DNA of 33,807 nt, from positions 1 through 33,807 of the forward strand of contig NZ_CAJYES010000005.1 of NCBI RefSeq assembly GCF_913773995.1, read 5' to 3'. Below the pieces are notes generated by a model, which had not been told where the DNA came from, did not search any database, and was given only the letters and a program-made list of their open reading frames with translations. Below are positions 21,032 to 29,729 of this stretch, piece by piece. This DNA is from an uncultured Pseudacidovorax sp. GTDB taxonomy: Bacteria; Pseudomonadota; Gammaproteobacteria; Burkholderiales; Burkholderiaceae_C. The translations under genes and the position numbers were made by a program. Position 1 is the first letter of the stretch. Every line of letters starts with the position of its first letter.

Positions 21032-21055
21032 GCGCTGTCACACAGTGCATTTAAC
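21032..21055 (+). promoter_or_regulatory. Palindrome and A/T-rich island upstream of the Sia-like cluster
   Basis: GCGCTGT-CAC-ACAGTGC (21032-21048, 6 of 7 pairs) is followed by CATTTAAC, a rare A/T-rich patch in this DNA and a possible -10 region. A convincing -35 was not found. Confidence 0.3.
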
Positions 21056-21095
21056 GTTTGCTTACACAGGCGTGTCTTCTTTCCCGCCACCCGTC

Positions 21096-22331
21096 ATGGC
21101 CGCCGCCAGCGAATACCTCAGCGACTTCCGTCCCCGTTCCCGCCAGCCCAGTGCCGCCGATCTGTGCGTGCCCGTGCCCTGCATGACCGCGGACGAGACG
21201 AACGAGAAGGTCATGGAGGTCTTCGCGCGTCATCGCGATCTGCTGGGCCTGCCGGTGGTGGAAGACGGCCGGCCCATCGGCCTCATCAACCGCAACACCT
21301 TCCTGTCGCAGATGAGCAAGCCGTTCCGCATGGAGCTGTACGGCCGCAAGAGCTGCATCGCCTTCATGGACAAGGAACCGCTGGTGGTGGACGAGGCGCT
21401 GGACATCGACGCGCTCACCTTCCGCGCGGTGGAGTTCGGCGAGAAGGCCCTGGCCGACGGCTTCATCGTCACGCGCGGCGATGCCTTCGCCGGCGTGGGC
21501 AGCGGGCTGCAGCTGATGCGTGCCGTGGCCGACATGCAGGCCGCGCGCAACCGCCAGATCATGCTCAGCATCGAATACGCCAGCGTGATCCAGCAGGCGA
21601 TGCTGCGTCCCTCGCGCGACGCGCTGGCCCGGGCCTGCCCCGAGGCCGACCTGGTCTGGGAGCCGCGCGACGTGGTGGGCGGCGACTTCTTCCATGCCTG
21701 CGGCACCCCCGAGGGATGGTTCGCGGCCTTGGCCGACTGCACGGGCCACGGCGTGCCCGGTGCCTTCATGACGCTCATCGCCTCGGCCAGCCTGGGCCAG
21801 GCCGTCGAGCGCCACGGTCCGCGCGATCCCGGGGGGCTGCTGGCCCAGGTCAACCGTGGCATCAAGCAGGCGCTCGGCCAGCTGGACGGCCGGGACGAGA
21901 CGCCCGGCTCGGACGACGGCCTGGACGCCGCCTGCCTCTGGGTGCAGCCGGTCGAGGGCACGCTGGTGTTCGCCGGTGCGCGCCTGTCGCTCTTCGTGCG
22001 CCGCCCGGGTGGCGCCGAGGTCGAGCTGGTGGAAGGCCATCGTCGTGGCGTCGGCTATGTGGACAGCCCGCTCGGCGAGGTCTGGCCCAACCACACGCTG
22101 CAGCTGCCTGCGGGCAGCCTTGTGTTCGCCGCCACCGACGGCCTCATCGACCAGATCGGCGGCCCCCGCGCCATCGCCTTCGGCAAGCGCCGCCTGCGCG
22201 AGCTGCTGCTGGCCCAGCCCGAAACGGCCTCGCCGGCCGATGTCAATCGCGCCGTCGGTGCCGCCTTGCGCGACTGGCAGGGCGAGCACCATCGCCGCGA
22301 CGACCTCACCTACTTCTGCTTCCGTGTCTGA
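21096..22331 (+). CDS. CBS-domain PP2C/SpoIIE-type serine phosphatase (SiaA-like role)
   Basis: 411 residues. The N-terminal 150 residues form a CBS pair: VMEVFARHRDLLGLPVVEDGRPIGLINRNTFL is split over the first unit, and DGFIVTRGDAFAGVGSGLQLMRAV forms the second. A linker helix (150-172) leads into a PP2C/SpoIIE phosphatase. Metal ligands are present: Asp197 in VVGGDFF, Asp214 in ADCTGHGVPGAFM, Asp348 in AATDG and Asp403 in RRDDLT. It should dephosphorylate a Ser/Thr phosphoprotein, most plausibly the SiaC-like product two genes on. The Pseudomonas SiaA has a membrane sensor and HAMP; this protein is soluble. ATG 21096 is used; GTG 21072 is possible. Neither has a strong ribosome-binding site. 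It ends 4 nt before the kinase gene. Confidence 0.85.
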   Translation: MAAASEYLSDFRPRSRQPSAADLCVPVPCMTADETNEKVMEVFARHRDLLGLPVVEDGRPIGLINRNTFLSQMSKPFRMELYGRKSCIAFMDKEPLVVDEALDIDALTFRAVEFGEKALADGFIVTRGDAFAGVGSGLQLMRAVADMQAARNRQIMLSIEYASVIQQAMLRPSRDALARACPEADLVWEPRDVVGGDFFHACGTPEGWFAALADCTGHGVPGAFMTLIASASLGQAVERHGPRDPGGLLAQVNRGIKQALGQLDGRDETPGSDDGLDAACLWVQPVEGTLVFAGARLSLFVRRPGGAEVELVEGHRRGVGYVDSPLGEVWPNHTLQLPAGSLVFAATDGLIDQIGGPRAIAFGKRRLRELLLAQPETASPADVNRAVGAALRDWQGEHHRRDDLTYFCFRV

Positions 22332-22335
22332 ACCG

Positions 22336-22908
22336 ATGCCCGCCGACCTGATCGCCGACAAGTACGGGACCTTCTTCAACCTGGCGCGCCAGCACGAGGT
22401 CATCTTCTACTACGTGGGCTACTTCTCGCAGCACATCGTCGGCGCCATGGCCGAGGCGGTGAAGCTGCAGCTGGAGGTGGCCGGCGTGGCCGGGCCCACG
22501 CGGCGCAAGCTGTTCTCGTCCTTCGTCGAGATGGCGCAGAACATCATCCATTACTCGGCCGACGCCCTGACGCCGCCGCACCAAGAAGACCGGGAGCTGC
22601 GTCACGGCTCGGTGTGCATCCGCCGCGAACCGGATGGCCGCTTCCTGCTGCTGTGCGCCAATCCGGTCGAGCCCCAGGCGGCGGACGAGTTGCGCGCCAA
22701 GCTGGAAGTCCTGCGCAGCATGACGCTGGACGAGATCAAGCAGGCCTACCGCCAGAGCCTGCGCGAGGAAGCGCCCGCGGGCAGCAAGGGCGCGGGCATG
22801 GGATTGCTCACGGTGGCGCGCGATGCCAGCGAACCGCTGGACTTCGACTTCGACGCGTCCGCGTCCGTGGGCGGTGCGCCGGTGTTCCATCTCAAGGCCT
22901 GCATCTGA
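22336..22908 (+). CDS. siaB: SiaB-family protein kinase (GHKL fold, DUF6272)
   Basis: 190 residues. The sequence matches the SiaB kinase family. It has an N-terminal FFNLARQHEVIFYYVGYFSQ region and an N-box helix, FVEMAQNIIHYS, with Glu65 and Asn69. The glycine lid GSKGAGMGLLTVAR spans residues 149-162. In the Pseudomonas system SiaB phosphorylates SiaC and is opposed by SiaA. The ATG is 4 nt after the phosphatase stop. GTG 22324, overlapping that stop, is an alternative start adding four residues. This tight packing implies coupled translation of kinase and phosphatase. Confidence 0.88.
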   Translation: MPADLIADKYGTFFNLARQHEVIFYYVGYFSQHIVGAMAEAVKLQLEVAGVAGPTRRKLFSSFVEMAQNIIHYSADALTPPHQEDRELRHGSVCIRREPDGRFLLLCANPVEPQAADELRAKLEVLRSMTLDEIKQAYRQSLREEAPAGSKGAGMGLLTVARDASEPLDFDFDASASVGGAPVFHLKACI

Positions 22909-22940
22909 CGCGGACGCGGCCCCTTCCCGATCCCCTGCGC

Positions 22941-23330
22941 ATGGACAACCTCTACATCGCCCCCACCCCCAGCTCGCCCGAGGTGGACTTCCGCTTCGAC
23001 AGCCATTCGCTCGCCCTGCGCGGCGAGTCCTATCCCGAGAACGCGGCGGCCTTCTATGGCGAGGTGCTGGGCCGCCTGCGCGCCTACCTGGCCGAGGCGG
23101 CGCCGAGCCGCATCGAGGTGCACATCGCGCTGGCCTACTTCAACAGCTCCAGCACCAAGATGCTGTTCAACCTGATCGATGCACTGCACGGCGCGGCCGA
23201 GGCGGGCTGCGTGGTGCAGCTGTCGTGGTACTACGACGAGGAGGACGACACCCTCCTCGAGTTCGGCCAGGAGCTGGCGGATGACTTTCCGGCCGTCGTC
23301 TTCACCTGCCTGCCGGTCGGCGCGCGCTGA
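22941..23330 (+). CDS. siaC: SiaC-family phosphoprotein (DUF1987)
   Basis: 129 residues, the usual length. The start MDNLYIAPTPSSPEVDF, the SYPENAAAFYGEVL segment and the strand-helix AYFNSSSTKMLFNLIDAL, followed by VVQLSWYYDEEDDTLLEFG, are diagnostic for DUF1987. The fold resembles the SpoIIAA/STAS anti-sigma antagonist. In Pseudomonas the unphosphorylated form binds and activates the diguanylate cyclase SiaD, and phosphorylation of a threonine in an N-T-S-S motif blocks this. The equivalent motif here is N-S-S-S, with Ser69 at the expected site and Thr72 as another candidate. It starts 32 nt after siaB. Confidence 0.88.
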   Translation: MDNLYIAPTPSSPEVDFRFDSHSLALRGESYPENAAAFYGEVLGRLRAYLAEAAPSRIEVHIALAYFNSSSTKMLFNLIDALHGAAEAGCVVQLSWYYDEEDDTLLEFGQELADDFPAVVFTCLPVGAR

Positions 23331-23352
23331 GGCCGGCCGCAAGCGAGCGCCC

Positions 23353-24150
23353 ATGCACGACATCGCCGCCACGCCGCCCGACCTCTTCGACGCCGAGCGC
23401 CAGGCGCTGGCCGCCGCCCGCGCCGTGCACGCGGCGGGCGCGGGCGATGCCATGGCCGCCCACGCCGCCCTGGGCGAGCTGCTGGCGAGCTACGACCGGC
23501 TGCTGCGCGAGACGCGTCGCCTGGTCCGCCGCAGCGACCGGGCCGAGCTGGAGATGACCCGCCTCAACCAGCGTCTGCAGGACCTGGCCGGTGAGCTCGA
23601 GTACCGCGCCACGCACGATCCGCTGACCGGCGTGCTCAACCGCGCCGCCATCATCGACGTGGCCAACCGTCAGTTCCTCAGCCACGACCTGGCGCTGGTG
23701 GTGCTGGACATCGACCACTTCAAGCGCGTCAACGACAGCTTCGGCCATCCCGCCGGCGACCAGGTGATCCTCGGCGTGGTGGATTGCCTGCAGCATGCCG
23801 CGCCCCCCGGGGCCCAGATCGGCCGGGTCGGCGGGGAGGAGTTCACCGTGGTGCTGCCGGGCTGGTCGATGGAGCGCACCGCGCAGATCGCCCAGCTGGT
23901 GCGCCGCGCCATCGAGGGTCGCGACTTCGCCCTGCCCGATGGCAGCCGCGTCACGGCGAGTTTCGGCGTGAGCTGGATGCCACGCGGGGCCTGCTTCGAC
24001 CTGGCCTACGCCCTGGCCGACGAGGCGCTCTATGCCGCCAAGCGCGGCGGGCGCAACCAGGTGGCCCGCGCCGCCGGCCCGGGGCTTTCGGCCGGCGCAG
24101 CGGAAGCTTCGCCCGCGCGCCTTGTCGCCGCACAGGCGTCCGGCGCATGA
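23353..24150 (+). CDS. siaD: SiaD-like diguanylate cyclase (GGEEF)
   Basis: 265 residues, matching the length of SiaD. The N-terminal 85 residues are helical with a coiled-coil stretch (ASYDRLLRETRRLVRRSDRAELEMTRLN, in two parts), which in Pseudomonas SiaD is the contact for SiaC. The GGDEF domain follows: THDPLTGVLNR, Asp119/Asp121 in VLDIDHFKRVND, and an intact GGEEF at 160-164. The product inhibition site RxxD that normally sits nine residues before GGEEF is absent (PPGA). The enzyme should make c-di-GMP from GTP. The gene lies 22 nt after siaC and its stop overlaps the start of the next gene (ATGA). Confidence 0.88.
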   Translation: MHDIAATPPDLFDAERQALAAARAVHAAGAGDAMAAHAALGELLASYDRLLRETRRLVRRSDRAELEMTRLNQRLQDLAGELEYRATHDPLTGVLNRAAIIDVANRQFLSHDLALVVLDIDHFKRVNDSFGHPAGDQVILGVVDCLQHAAPPGAQIGRVGGEEFTVVLPGWSMERTAQIAQLVRRAIEGRDFALPDGSRVTASFGVSWMPRGACFDLAYALADEALYAAKRGGRNQVARAAGPGLSAGAAEASPARLVAAQASGA

Positions 24151-25928
24151 CCCAAACCCTTGTTCTCGGCCGGCCGAAGAAGGCCCGCGCGCAAGAGTGC
24201 GACGACGCCGGTGGGCCCCCACCCGATGTGCACGCCGCTGTTCGGCTGGCGCTGGCCGAGACCGATGTGCGGCGCTTCGCCCTGGGCGCGCTGGAGCAGC
24301 TGGCCCTGCTGCTGGATGTGCCCTGGCAGGGACTGGTCTGCGCTGCGCCGGATGGCCGCCCCGGTGAGGCGCGGGTGCTCGCCGCCCAGGGGCGCTATGC
24401 GCATTGGCTGGAGCGGCCTCTGACCCAACTGCCCGAGCCGCTGCTGCGCACGCTGCTGGCCGATGCGCTGACCCGCGGCACCAGCGTGCAGGACGCCACG
24501 GGTCGCATGGCGCTTTTCATCGGCCGTCCGGGCACGGGCGGCATGGTCGTGCTCCTGGATGCGCCCGGCGCATCCGCCGCCAGGCGGCCGGACTGGCGCC
24601 TGCTCGATGCCTTCTGCGCCAACCTGGGCCTGCTGCTGCACAGCCGCGGCCTGCTGGAGCGGCTGCACGAGCAGGCCTACAAGGATCCGTTGCTGTCACT
24701 GCCCAACCGCGCCCGCTTCATCGAGAAGGTGGACGAGTGCGTGAACCGCGGCCTGCAGGGCCACATCCTGGCGCTCGTCGACATCGACGACTTCAGCGCC
24801 ACCAACGACGTGATGGGCCATCGCTTCGGCGACCGCCTGCTGGAGGTCGTGGCCCGCCGCCTGGGCGATGCCCTGCCGCCCGGCGTGCTGCTGGCGCGGG
24901 TGGGCGCCGACACCTTCGGTGTGCTGGGCCCGGTGGGCCAGGTGGCGCCGCAGCGTCTGCTGGACAGCGTGGGGCAGCCGCTGGCGGTGGAGGCCGTACC
25001 GCACAAGGTGTCGCTCACCTGCGGCTGGGTGCTGCTGGGCGAAGGCGGCGGCAGCGGCGTGGACCAGGTCAAGGACGCGACCATCGCGCTCAAGCGGGCC
25101 AAGCGCGACCACCGCGGCCAGCACCTGCAGTACCTGGCGCACATGGGGGCCGAAGCCCGTGCCCGTGCCCTGCTGCTGTCGGACCTGCGCGCCGCCATCG
25201 AGCGCCAGCAGCTTTTTCTGGTCTATCAGCCGCAGCTGGATCTGCGCACCGGTGCCCTCATCGGCCTGGAGGCCCTGCTGCGCTGGCGCTGCGAGGACGG
25301 CCGCTTCATCCCGCCGGCCCAGTTCATCCCGGTCGCCGAGCATTCCGGGCTGATCGTGGCCCTGGGCGAATGGGTGCTGGCGACGGCCTGCCGCACCATG
25401 CGCGAGCTGCTGGATGCCGGTCGCGCACCACTGCGCATGGCGGTCAACGTGTCGATGGCGCAACTGCAGGACGCCGGCTTCGCCGCCACCGCGCGCCGCG
25501 CGCTGGCCGAAGCGGGCATCGAAGCGCGACACCTGGAGCTGGAGATCACCGAATCGGTGGCGGTGCTGCCCACCGACTTCCTGGAGGCCACGCTGCAGAC
25601 GCTGCGTGCCGAGGGGGTCTCCATCGCCATCGACGACTTCGGCACCGGCTATTCCTCGCTCAGCTACCTGGAGCGCCTGCCGCTGGACCGCATCAAGATC
25701 GACCGCAGCTTCGTGCGCCAGCTGGGCGAGCCGCGCGGCGCGCGCATTGCGGAGATGGTGGCCCAGCTCGGCCGCCGGTTGGGCCTGGCGGTGCTGGCCG
25801 AGGGCATCGAGGACGAGGTCGCCTGCGGCGCGCTGCAGGCCATGGGCTGTCACGAGGGACAGGGCTTCCACCTGGCGATGCCGATGGACAAGGCGGCCCT
25901 GGACGGCTGGCTGCAGGCGCGGGCCTGA
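24147..25928 (+). CDS. DUF3369-GGDEF(degenerate)-EAL protein, likely c-di-GMP phosphodiesterase
   Basis: 593 residues. Residues about 25-165 resemble DUF3369 (VRRFALGALEQLALLLDVPWQGLVCA). A GGDEF-like domain (about 175-335) keeps DPLLSLPNRARF and the VDIDDF metal site, but the signature reads GADTF (253-257), so cyclase activity is unlikely. The EAL domain (about 345-590) looks active: EALLRW with Glu375, NVSMAQL, ELEITES, the loop-6 motif DDFGTGYSSL (496-505), KIDRSFV and AEGIE with Glu552. It should hydrolyse c-di-GMP, with the GGDEF part possibly sensing GTP. The ATG overlaps the siaD stop by 4 nt, so cyclase and hydrolase are translationally coupled. No membrane segment. Confidence 0.88.
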   Translation: MTQTLVLGRPKKARAQECDDAGGPPPDVHAAVRLALAETDVRRFALGALEQLALLLDVPWQGLVCAAPDGRPGEARVLAAQGRYAHWLERPLTQLPEPLLRTLLADALTRGTSVQDATGRMALFIGRPGTGGMVVLLDAPGASAARRPDWRLLDAFCANLGLLLHSRGLLERLHEQAYKDPLLSLPNRARFIEKVDECVNRGLQGHILALVDIDDFSATNDVMGHRFGDRLLEVVARRLGDALPPGVLLARVGADTFGVLGPVGQVAPQRLLDSVGQPLAVEAVPHKVSLTCGWVLLGEGGGSGVDQVKDATIALKRAKRDHRGQHLQYLAHMGAEARARALLLSDLRAAIERQQLFLVYQPQLDLRTGALIGLEALLRWRCEDGRFIPPAQFIPVAEHSGLIVALGEWVLATACRTMRELLDAGRAPLRMAVNVSMAQLQDAGFAATARRALAEAGIEARHLELEITESVAVLPTDFLEATLQTLRAEGVSIAIDDFGTGYSSLSYLERLPLDRIKIDRSFVRQLGEPRGARIAEMVAQLGRRLGLAVLAEGIEDEVACGALQAMGCHEGQGFHLAMPMDKAALDGWLQARA

Positions 25929-27114: not shown

Positions 27115-27678
27115 TCAGTTTGGAAAAACGCGCAGCTCCGAGGCCAGGAGGCCCAGGAGCGCCATGTCGTGGAAACGGTTGTCCCAGAAGGCCGCCTCCC
27201 GCAATCTTCCCTCGATCCGAAAGCCCAGGTACTGGGCCAGGCGCAAGGAAGCGGCATTGTCGGGGTGGATGAGGGCGTCGACGCGGTGGATGCCCTGGGT
27301 CTGGAAGGCCCAGCCGAGCACGGCCACCAGGGCCTCACGCATGTAGCCCTGCTGCCAGGCGCTGCGGGCCAGTTCGTAGCCCAGCGTGCAGCGGTGCCAG
27401 CGTGGGTCCCAGTTGAACAGGCCGCAGGTGCCCAGCATCGTTCCGCCGCTGCGGGACTCCAGCGCCCAGCGGAACACCGGCGGACCGTACTGCCAGCCCG
27501 CCCTGCAGCGGGCGATGAAGTCGTGCGCCGTCGCCTCGGTGTCCAGCGGCGCCGCGCCCCAGTGGCGCATGGCGTCGTGATCGCGGTGCATCGCCGCCAT
27601 GGCGGATGCATCGGCATGCGCCAGTTCACGAAGGATGAGCCGTTCCGTCTTCAGTTCTGGAAAGGCGGGGAGGCTCAT
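27115..27678 (-). CDS. GNAT-family N-acetyltransferase (RimJ/RimL type)
   Basis: 187 residues. The order of GNAT motifs is clear: LKTERLILRELAHADASAM at the start, a GTCGLFNWDPRWHRCTLGYELARSAWQQGYMREAL segment (in parts) that carries the acetyl-CoA loop as QQGYMREA, and HPDNAASLRLAQYLGFRIEGRLR near the end. The family acetylates protein N-termini or small amines; the substrate is unknown. It lies between tkt (stop 17 nt upstream) and gap (21 nt downstream) on the same strand, so it should be co-expressed with central carbon metabolism genes. The start is ATG 27678; a longer frame runs antisense-like into tkt. Confidence 0.88.
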   Translation of the reverse strand: MSLPAFPELKTERLILRELAHADASAMAAMHRDHDAMRHWGAAPLDTEATAHDFIARCRAGWQYGPPVFRWALESRSGGTMLGTCGLFNWDPRWHRCTLGYELARSAWQQGYMREALVAVLGWAFQTQGIHRVDALIHPDNAASLRLAQYLGFRIEGRLREAAFWDNRFHDMALLGLLASELRVFPN

Positions 27679-27695
27679 CGGCGGGAGGCTGCTCT

Positions 27696-29729
27696 TCAGC
27701 CCTTGAGCACGGCCTGCACGGTGGCGGCCACGTTCTCGGGCGTGAAACCGAAGTGCTTGAACAGCACGCCGGCCGGTGCCGATTCGCCGTAGCTGTCGAT
27801 GCCCACCACGGCATCCACACCATACTTCCACCAGCCGCCGGTGCTGCCCATTTCGACCGCGACGCGCGGCAGGCCCTTGGGCAGCACGGACTTCTTGTAC
27901 TTGACGTCCTGGCGGTCGAAGGTGGTGGTGCTGGGCATGGAGACCACGCGCACCGGGATCTTGCGGGCGGCCAGCAACTCCTGCGCGGCCAGCGCCAGTT
28001 GCACCTCGGAGCCGGTGGCGATGATCACCGCCTTGGCCTTCTTCTTGAGGCCCACGCGCGAGGGCTCGGCCAGCACGTAGGCGCCACGGCTGATGTCGGC
28101 CAGCTCGTCCTTGGGCGCGTAGTTCAGGTTCTGGCGCGACAGCAGCAGCGCCGTGGGCTGCGTCCTGTTGCGCAGCGCGCAGGCCCAGGCCACCACCGTT
28201 TCGGTGGTGTCACCCGGACGCCATACATCGAGGTTGGGGATCAGGCGCAGGCTGGCCGCATGCTCGATCGACTGGTGCGTGGGGCCGTCCTCGCCCAGGC
28301 CGATGGAGTCGTGCGTGAACACATGGATCACCCGCTGCTTCATCAGCGCCGCCATGCGGATGGCGTTGCGGCTGTAGTCGCTGAAGGTCAGGAAGGTGCC
28401 GCCGTAGGGGATGAAGCCGCCGTGCAGCGCCACGCCGTTCATGATGGCGGCCATGCCGAACTCTCGCACGCCGTAGTTGATGTGGCGGCCGATGCGGCCG
28501 TCCTCGGTGCGCACCACGGTGCCGTCGGCGGCGAAGCGCAGGTCGGGCGTGGCGGCGGTCTTGGTCAGGTTGGAGCCGGTCAGGTCGGCGCTGCCGCCGA
28601 GAAGTTCGGGCAGCTGCACCGTCAGCGTCTCCAGCGCCAGCTGGCTGGCCTTGCGGCTGGCCACGGTCTCGGCCTTGGTGTGGGCGGCCAGCACGGCGTC
28701 GACCACCACCTGGTCGAAGGCGGCGGGCAGCTCGCCCTTCATGCGGCGCTCGAAAGCGGCGGCCAGATCGGGGAAGGCCTGCGCGTAGGCGGCGAACTTC
28801 TCGCTCCAGGCGGCTTCGGCGGCCGCGCCCTTGGCCTTGGCGTCCCAGTCCTGGTAGACGGCCTCGGGCAGCTCGAAGGGGGCGTGTTCCCAGCCCAGGG
28901 CCGAGCGGGTCAAGCCGATCTCGTCGGCGCCCAGCGGCTCGCCGTGCGCCTTGGCGGTACCGCCCCGGTTGGGGCTGCCCTTGCCGATCTGCGTCTTGCA
29001 GACCACGAGGGTCGGCTTGCTGCCCTCGCCCGTCTTGGCCTGGGCGATGGCGGCGGAGACGGCGACGGCGTCATGGCCGTCCACCGGGCCGATCACGTTC
29101 CAGCCGCAGGCCTCGAAGCGCTTGGGTGTGTCGTCGATGAACCAGGGCGCGACCTTGCCGTCGATGCTGATGCCGTTGTCGTCGTACAGGGCGATCAGCT
29201 TGCCCAGCTTCCAGGCGCCTGCCAGGGCCACGGCCTCGTGGCTGATGCCTTCCATCAGGCAGCCGTCGCCCAGGAAGGCGTAGGTGTGGTGGTCCACGAT
29301 GGCATGGCCGTCGCGGTTGAACTCGGCGGCCAGCAGCTTCTCGGCCAGCGCGAAGCCCACGGCGTTGGTGATGCCCTGGCCCAGCGGGCCGGTGGTGGTC
29401 TCGACGCCGGGGGTGATGCCCACCTCGGGGTGGCCGGCGGTGCGGCTGTGCAGCTGGCGGAAGTTCTTCAGTTCCTCGATGGGGAGGTCGTAGCCCGTCA
29501 GGTGCAGCAGGGCATAGATCAGCATCGAGGCATGCCCATTGGAGAGCACGAAGCGGTCGCGGTCGGCCCAGTGCGGGTTGGCCGGGTTGTGCTTGAGGTG
29601 CTCACCCCAGAGGGCCGCCGCCATGTCGGCCATGCCCATCGGGGCGCCGGGATGCCCGGAGTTGGCTTGCTGGACGGCGTCCATCGCCAACGCGCGGATC
29701 GCGTTGGCCATCAGGGCTTGGTTGGCCAT
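27696..29729 (-). CDS. tkt: Transketolase
   Basis: 677 residues, full length. Conserved signatures are present: [13 protein letters not shown] with His26, the thiamine diphosphate motif starting [25 protein letters not shown], and GVREFGM with the catalytic Glu. The enzyme moves two-carbon units in the pentose phosphate pathway (and the Calvin cycle if present). The gene is first in the tkt-GNAT-gap operon and is divergent from speD across about 200 bp. No strong Shine-Dalgarno was seen. Confidence 0.97.

Follow-up and report, generated by a model that had tools for sequence, protein, structure and literature searches.

The stretch analysed here (the window; 33,807 nucleotides (nt), positions 1 to 33,807 of contig NZ_CAJYES010000005.1, assembly GCF_913773995.1, from an uncultured Pseudacidovorax sp.) carries a cluster of five genes, A to E, that resembles the SiaABCD system for control of the biofilm signal cyclic di-GMP (c-di-GMP) with one gene added. 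All five lie on the + strand between positions 21096 and 25928; A to D are separated by 4, 32 and 22 nt, and D and E overlap by 4 nt (ATGA). A (21096..22331; 411 amino acids) encodes a SiaA-class phosphatase with a CBS-type N-terminus, a PP2C/SpoIIE domain (residues 206-411) and no transmembrane segment, B (22336..22908; 190 amino acids) a SiaB-class, GHKL-like kinase of the DUF6272 family, C (22941..23330; 129 amino acids) a SiaC phosphoprotein, and D (23353..24150; 265 amino acids) a SiaD-class diguanylate cyclase with a GGEEF signature and a long stalk helix. The last gene, E (24147..25928; 593 amino acids), encodes a predicted c-di-GMP phosphodiesterase (PDE) made up of a DUF3369 remnant, a degenerate GGDEF domain (GADTF) and an EAL domain. 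An initial annotation had described this layout, which we recovered in every detail, and had called the genes a Sia-like partner switch, an assignment borne out by the Pfam and PDB matches of A to D to SiaA to SiaD. The soluble CBS-type SiaA, the serine in SiaC, the cyclase with one docking motif and no inhibitory site, and the loss of a domain from E go beyond that annotation.

The products of A, B and C form the core of a Sia-type switch in the broad sense, that is, a SiaC-family protein with an adjoining SiaA-like PP2C phosphatase and SiaB-like kinase. A matched the Pfam families SpoIIE (E-value 2e-20) and CBS (3.2e-6, residues 26-72) and, by PDB sequence search, the PP2C domain of SiaA (6k4e; 4.7e-46); it has no hydrophobic segment (maximum 19-residue Kyte-Doolittle mean 1.25) and is of a soluble CBS type, not the membrane-bound sensor that is a trait of the Pseudomonas aeruginosa type. 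The CBS-type sensor suggests a cytosolic, perhaps nucleotide, signal rather than membrane stress. B matched DUF6272 (8.6e-38) and SiaB (6kko_A; 9.5e-14), with the N-box and G-box regions aligned. C scored 131 bits against the Pfam SiaC family (PF09345, formerly DUF1987; 1.7e-38, cut-off 24.5) and matched the PDB SiaC entries 6kko and 6k4f (1e-17), aligning with SiaC along residues 1-116. At the position of Thr68, the phosphosite of P. aeruginosa SiaC, C has Ser69 (codon at 23145..23147, + strand), and serine stands there in 123/123 distinct loci with a CBS-type SiaA (CBS loci).

The cyclase also departs from the P. aeruginosa type. D matched Pfam GGDEF (1.1e-32), and a PDB sequence search placed SiaD (7e6g) sixth among 54 GGDEF chains; its AlphaFold2 model (predicted local distance difference test score 86.5) has one 55-residue stalk helix, residues 33-87, and retrieved 7e6g_A at rank 5 over 240 columns in Foldseek. 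The stalk of D alone, used as a PDB sequence query, gave no SiaD match. Pattern and alignment place a single SiaC-docking motif, RETRRLVRRSDRAELEM, in this stalk (23506..23556, + strand), with residues S61, D62 and R63 invariant across 27 aligned rows, and the model together with the alignment therefore describes D as a SiaD-like cyclase whose helical stalk bears a SiaC-docking motif, one and not the two of P. aeruginosa SiaD. At the primary inhibitory site (I-site; 23803..23814, + strand) D has PPGA in place of the RxxD canonical for SiaD, and the I-site is absent. Judging from these residues, D is probably not product-inhibited through the primary I-site, and therefore its own product probably cannot switch it off; D may also bind fewer copies of SiaC.

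To place this combination of features, we compared 174 SiaC loci, 156 of them distinct after removal of identical SiaC and SiaD pairs (L and G numbers below are our own handles). The named loci are the best 80 of 304 by similarity to the SiaC of the window and lean to the serine class, and therefore the counts do not give the natural share of the two classes. The 120 distinct cyclase-bearing loci fell into two sets with no locus mixing the Thr/Ser and RxxD states: 24 combine threonine and RxxD with two or more docking motifs and lack a CBS domain, and 96 have serine and no RxxD, 88 of these with one docking motif. A CBS-type SiaA was found at 95/96 of the latter; the remaining one (L099) counts as non-CBS only since its contig cuts the start of A, and is of the serine class by SiaC and SiaD. 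Within the 95 CBS loci, one docking motif was found in 87, none by pattern in six and two in two; these motifs were counted with patterns that had been widened twice, and under narrower patterns two copies were found in 15/25 non-CBS SiaD proteins. One threonine locus without a SiaD above the cut-off lies outside the 24, early locus counts include loci fetched twice under two identifiers, L205 contains only part of B, and several places lie outside the sample (G654, G683, G457, G501, G732, two of G577 and the second of G408). By its sequence, the window module is a Sia-type switch in the broad sense that belongs to a second, CBS-sensor and serine, class and not to the P. aeruginosa type.

Set beside the P. 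aeruginosa system as presented in parts of three papers (PLoS One PMC7647112, eLife PMC8457831 and Journal of Biological Chemistry PMC12834913), the window holds the same four families in the same order, and D likewise joins a stalk helix to a GGEEF domain. P. aeruginosa, however, has a membrane SiaA (PMC12834913), a Thr68 phosphosite in SiaC, a SiaD stalk with two SiaC-binding motifs around S50/Q54 and S82/Q86 and an RxxD I-site that includes R170 and D173 (PMC8457831, PMC7647112, PMC12834913), with S82, D83, R84 and Q86 of SiaD contacting SiaC (eLife PMC8457831), whereas the window has a soluble CBS SiaA, serine, one motif and no RxxD; the EAL gene is an addition of the window cluster and not part of P. 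aeruginosa SiaABCD. The Sia literature that we found concerns P. aeruginosa and its threonine-type module, and no serine-class or CBS-type Sia switch and no Sia-linked PDE appeared in open PMC titles and abstract starts among the matches listed, one query being very broad. If a second common class differs in sensor, phospho-residue, number of docking motifs and feedback, the SiaD2-SiaC4 mechanism described in the literature would become a special case.

Beyond the cyclase-bearing loci, 27 distinct loci (28 minus L055, which is cut at a contig end) carry a CBS-type SiaA, SiaB and SiaC with no cyclase above the cut-off at the place of D, including L144-L150, L160, L161, L170, L178, L179, L189 and L195; where scanned, the frames downstream vary widely (glycogen phosphorylase, chemotaxis receptor, aldehyde dehydrogenase, laccase-like). 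At L157, L172, L186, L187, L188 and L198 the order is A-C-B, with no cyclase and then an HD-GYP-like protein (Pfam scan: L186) that keeps HHExxDGxGYP and is without the HDxxK motif, and it is possible that a Sia switch acts there on a degenerate HD-GYP protein. In a Paracidovorax citrulli record (L035:4135-4565), the start of A is split over two frames, so that the gene may be broken or the sequence faulty.

We then turned to E, in which Pfam recognises DUF3369, GGDEF and EAL (EAL 1.6e-68). The GGDEF signature is degenerate (VGADTF; 24900..24917, + strand; by sequence and alignment). In the EAL domain (25182..25883, + strand), ten residues that we checked, including E375, N434, E466, D496, D497, K517, E552 and Q572, are identical in 39/39 aligned proteins; we take these residues to be the catalytic ones, and on that assumption E has a full catalytic set. 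The model of E predicts a folded DUF3369 remnant, a long signalling helix, a kept GGDEF fold and an EAL domain resembling PDE structures, with best structural matches to MorA, PA0575, DosP, BifA and MucR, all presumably active PDEs.

E has no N-terminal receiver (REC) domain with a phospho-acceptor aspartate; alignment with full-length relatives leaves only a scar, PDVHAAVRLALA (24222..24257, + strand; residues 26-37), which connects the start of the lost receiver directly to DUF3369. Most sia-linked relatives of E have a receiver-like domain ahead of DUF3369, its Response_reg matches all falling under the Pfam cut-off. Among 35 sia-linked E rows, counting that of the window, six have lost the receiver (window, L033, L034, L038, L040 and L119), 11 have a changed phospho-acceptor aspartate and 18 keep it; a DUF3369 match is absent from L119, L067 and L038, so that the E of L119 has neither receiver nor DUF3369. 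Stand-alone relatives from genomes without SiaC (L207-L210) share the DUF3369-GGDEF-EAL core with E at 47-51% identity, but retain the key receiver residues that E has lost (acidic patch, LLDVV, TG and K), with receiver Pfam scores of 28.4 and 28.5 in L208 and L209 against a cut-off of 30.2. Genes for a periplasmic-binding protein and a PAS-HATPase kinase follow directly in 3/3 of these relatives whose neighbours were scanned (L208, L209 and L210); on the flank opposite the kinase, L209 also has a chemotaxis-receptor gene. The alignments indicate that E descends from a two-component PDE, a former response regulator, whose receiver is decaying or deleted and whose EAL residues are intact; with the receiver, E will have shed its former control by a kinase.

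E is closely tied to the sia locus. Pseudacidovorax (Comamonadaceae) provides the closest named relatives of the window, whose genome holds a single SiaC (strain RU35E: SiaC 90% identical, joined A-D columns 91%), and the A-D order is widespread in Burkholderiales and recurs in some Pseudomonas. Within the genus, SiaC was found in 4/15 genomes, all four with an E orthologue (at least 62% identity) beside it, and 11/11 congeners without SiaC have no E orthologue (best EAL match 35-41% identity). A survey of 399 family genomes, scoring the three best candidates in each, found SiaC in 34 and an E of at least 60% identity in 14, all 14 at the SiaC locus, with the next best at 51%; chance adjacency of E is ruled out by this restriction to sia loci. 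In an 82-row tree built from joined A-D proteins, E adjoins the cyclase in 34/39 rows of the Comamonadaceae clade, a pattern that fits one capture of E followed by few losses and that rules out a late insertion private to the window strain. The five rows scored as without E are two Rhodoferax loci, L037 and L047, which are nested in the clade, and L065, whose contig ends at D. The tree left out 7/80 named loci that lack one of the five profile matches (L055, L063, L071, L072, L074, L078 and L099) and took eight chosen loci from those with G handles; L068, from a record titled Pantoea sp. 18069, falls inside the Comamonadaceae, and its title or assembly is probably wrong.

The junction between D and E is conserved as well. 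In a search that began 30 nt upstream of the D stop, the first in-frame E start fell between -17 and +28 nt of that stop in 33/33 orthologues (L063, interrupted by a run of N, is outside this set). In 31/33 the frame has an ATG within -11 to +28 nt, 13 of them at -4 and nine at -11, and the remaining two carry TTG at -4 instead; a 15-codon stretch in the same frames contains an ATG in 24% of cases. In three congeners whose glyceraldehyde-3-phosphate dehydrogenase (GAPDH) is 99% identical to that of the window (G004, G009 and G013), amidase and GAPDH are ~110 nt apart and the whole A-E block is missing. The end of the G004 amidase gene carries the same 17 nt as the end of E in G012, with two differences in G009, and from there similarity runs unbroken into GAPDH. 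This fits loss by recombination over short similarity; gain of the block in the other lineage may be the explanation instead. In G002 the sia block does not adjoin GAPDH. The initial annotation had suggested a search for conservation of the five-gene order and had named absence of the EAL gene from close relatives as a finding that would refute its proposal. Within the genus this refutation fails, as all four SiaC-bearing genomes have E and the three congeners lack the entire block, and in the wider clade the order prevails; E is nevertheless absent while A-D stay at L037, L047 and the two Rhodoferax loci.

We reasoned that these features could together describe a working circuit, and on balance we lean towards a soluble second-class Sia module in which the switch gates D, and a co-translated, largely ungated PDE, E, serves as the brake missing from this cyclase class. 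A, with its CBS sensor and PP2C phosphatase, and the kinase B would set the phosphorylation state of Ser69 in C; by analogy with P. aeruginosa, unphosphorylated C would dock on the single stalk motif of D and turn the cyclase on, and D, without a primary I-site, would not be switched off by its own product. E, whose start overlaps the D stop, would be made in step with D and would hydrolyse c-di-GMP steadily. It would thereby supply the off-rate, such that c-di-GMP is kept from rising without limit while D is active and drops quickly after phosphorylation of C.

The initial annotation had proposed instead that SiaC binds E as well as D, with one phospho-switch driving cyclase and PDE in opposite directions. 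The conserved neighbourhood and start/stop coupling would suit this idea, the loss of receiver input leaves room for another regulator, and DUF1987 proteins are suggested, in a passage of the eLife paper (PMC8457831), to modulate adjacent proteins. However, the strict SiaC-docking pattern matched 0/76 EAL open reading frames (ORFs) near SiaC, as compared with 79/113 CBS-class SiaD proteins as a control, and a looser pattern, which recovered 108/113 CBS-class and 25/25 other SiaD proteins, matched 11/76 EAL ORFs at scattered places, some inside the degenerate GGDEF signature; the window's own E, outside this set of 76, was inspected for the motif by eye. Docking of SiaC on E through a SiaD-type motif was accordingly rejected as unsupported, though SiaC could bind E through another surface. 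Moreover, a receiver-like domain persists in most sia-linked orthologues, the E of L119 has neither receiver nor DUF3369, and E can be lost while A-D stay. As E shows no strict docking motif and no longer has its former input, its control by the shared phospho-switch, although conceivable, is unsupported, and we consider it quite unlikely.

E might, alternatively, share a transcript with the switch and yet serve a separate c-di-GMP pool, responding to a ligand of its own that binds DUF3369 or the degenerate GGDEF domain (e.g. GTP). The DUF3369 remnant is predicted to be folded and followed by a long helix, and the GGDEF fold is kept despite its degenerate signature; against this, the input regions have been trimmed repeatedly (L119, L067 and L038 have no DUF3369 match), and the conserved E start near the D stop fits joint dosage better. 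We therefore regard a separate pool as unlikely. Degenerate GGDEF-EAL proteins can also act as effectors, as FimX and LapD do, and E could by this precedent be a c-di-GMP-binding protein with intact-looking motifs that is no longer an active PDE. The identity of all ten EAL residues in 39/39 proteins and the structural matches, to proteins regarded as active PDEs, make this highly improbable.

Several observations weigh against the ungated-brake reading that we prefer. The enzyme activities assigned to A to E are predictions. The phospho-acceptor aspartate is retained in 18/35 sia-linked E rows, and receiver control may therefore persist there. E is missing while A-D stay at L037 and L047, within the E clade, and at the two Rhodoferax loci, and at four Acidovorax loci outside the tree (L071, L072, L074 and L078) the order is A-C-D with no B between and no E, with a MASE1-EAL gene upstream. 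Beyond the E clade, many serine-class loci lack an EAL neighbour.

How far an EAL neighbour goes with this class was surveyed at 92 loci from the family and order samples, excluding the window, by comparing the near 3.5-kilobase flanks with the next 3.5 kilobases. CBS loci with a cyclase have EAL genes in the near flank in 18/33 cases (10/20 genera) vs. 1/33 in the far flank, canonical loci in 2/24 (1/14 genera) vs. 4/24, the far ones all in one genus, and loci without a cyclase in 1/35 vs. 2/35. EAL neighbours are thus commoner at CBS loci with a cyclase than at canonical ones (10/20 vs. 1/14 genera; p=0.011, Fisher test with genera taken as independent). Without the E lineage, however, the excess is 4/15 vs. 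1/14 genera (p=0.33), which is suggestive only, and one of those four genera (L185/L200) owes its place to an upstream EAL gene on the opposite strand, so it is mainly one lineage that speaks for a PDE as the substitute for the lost I-site. The input parts of the EAL neighbours are unrelated: 4HB_MCP-HAMP (L125), HAMP (L140), PAS-GAF (L163) and PAS (L093), with, in addition, an upstream EAL protein with a weak MASE1 match (L071) and an EAL-CBS-GGDEF protein (L202). The profile for the CBS region at the SiaA N-terminus also picks out the EAL-CBS-GGDEF proteins beside two sia loci (L140:10893-12695 and L202:10118-12148); SiaA and those proteins may therefore share a sensor module.

More tentatively, and with rather less than even confidence, we propose that there are two old Sia classes, that the Ser/CBS class can replace allosteric feedback by a neighbouring PDE, and that the Comamonadaceae captured a two-component PDE into the operon, with a start/stop overlap with the cyclase and a receiver that is being shed. 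A linked PDE that is losing its two-component input would let one ask, as in a natural experiment, whether a dedicated PDE and product inhibition can stand in for each other as brakes. The Dos operon of Escherichia coli, like the window, encodes a cyclase (DosC) beside a GGDEF-EAL PDE (DosP). DosC and DosP sense oxygen through haem domains, whereas no sensor is evident in the PDE of the window, and the window cyclase would be controlled through a phosphorylated partner. A phosphorylatable partner also controls the cyclase in HsbA-HsbD and BgrSTUWV-BgrR, where, according to a passage of the eLife paper (PMC8457831), the partners are STAS proteins, in contrast to the SiaC-family partner of the window.

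The cluster is flanked by an amidase gene 89 nt upstream on the same strand and, on the other side, by a convergent GAPDH gene. Ahead of A lies a candidate promoter or operator element, TTTAACGTTTGCTTAC (21050..21065, + strand), which adjoins a short palindrome, ACAGCGCTGT, 5' of A; a similar element precedes A in three distinct loci, all of the window's genus (6/141 CBS rows, each locus fetched twice, with a pattern built from these same sequences). A scan ahead of A found no sigma-70 consensus site, and in an Rfam scan of the window no family reached its gathering score, which therefore indicates no riboswitch of the covered families in the window. Between GAPDH and transketolase, a GNAT acetyltransferase gene (27115-27831, - strand) is present in G012 and G005 and was not found at an E-value of 1e-15 in G004, G009 and G013, the same congeners that are without the sia block.

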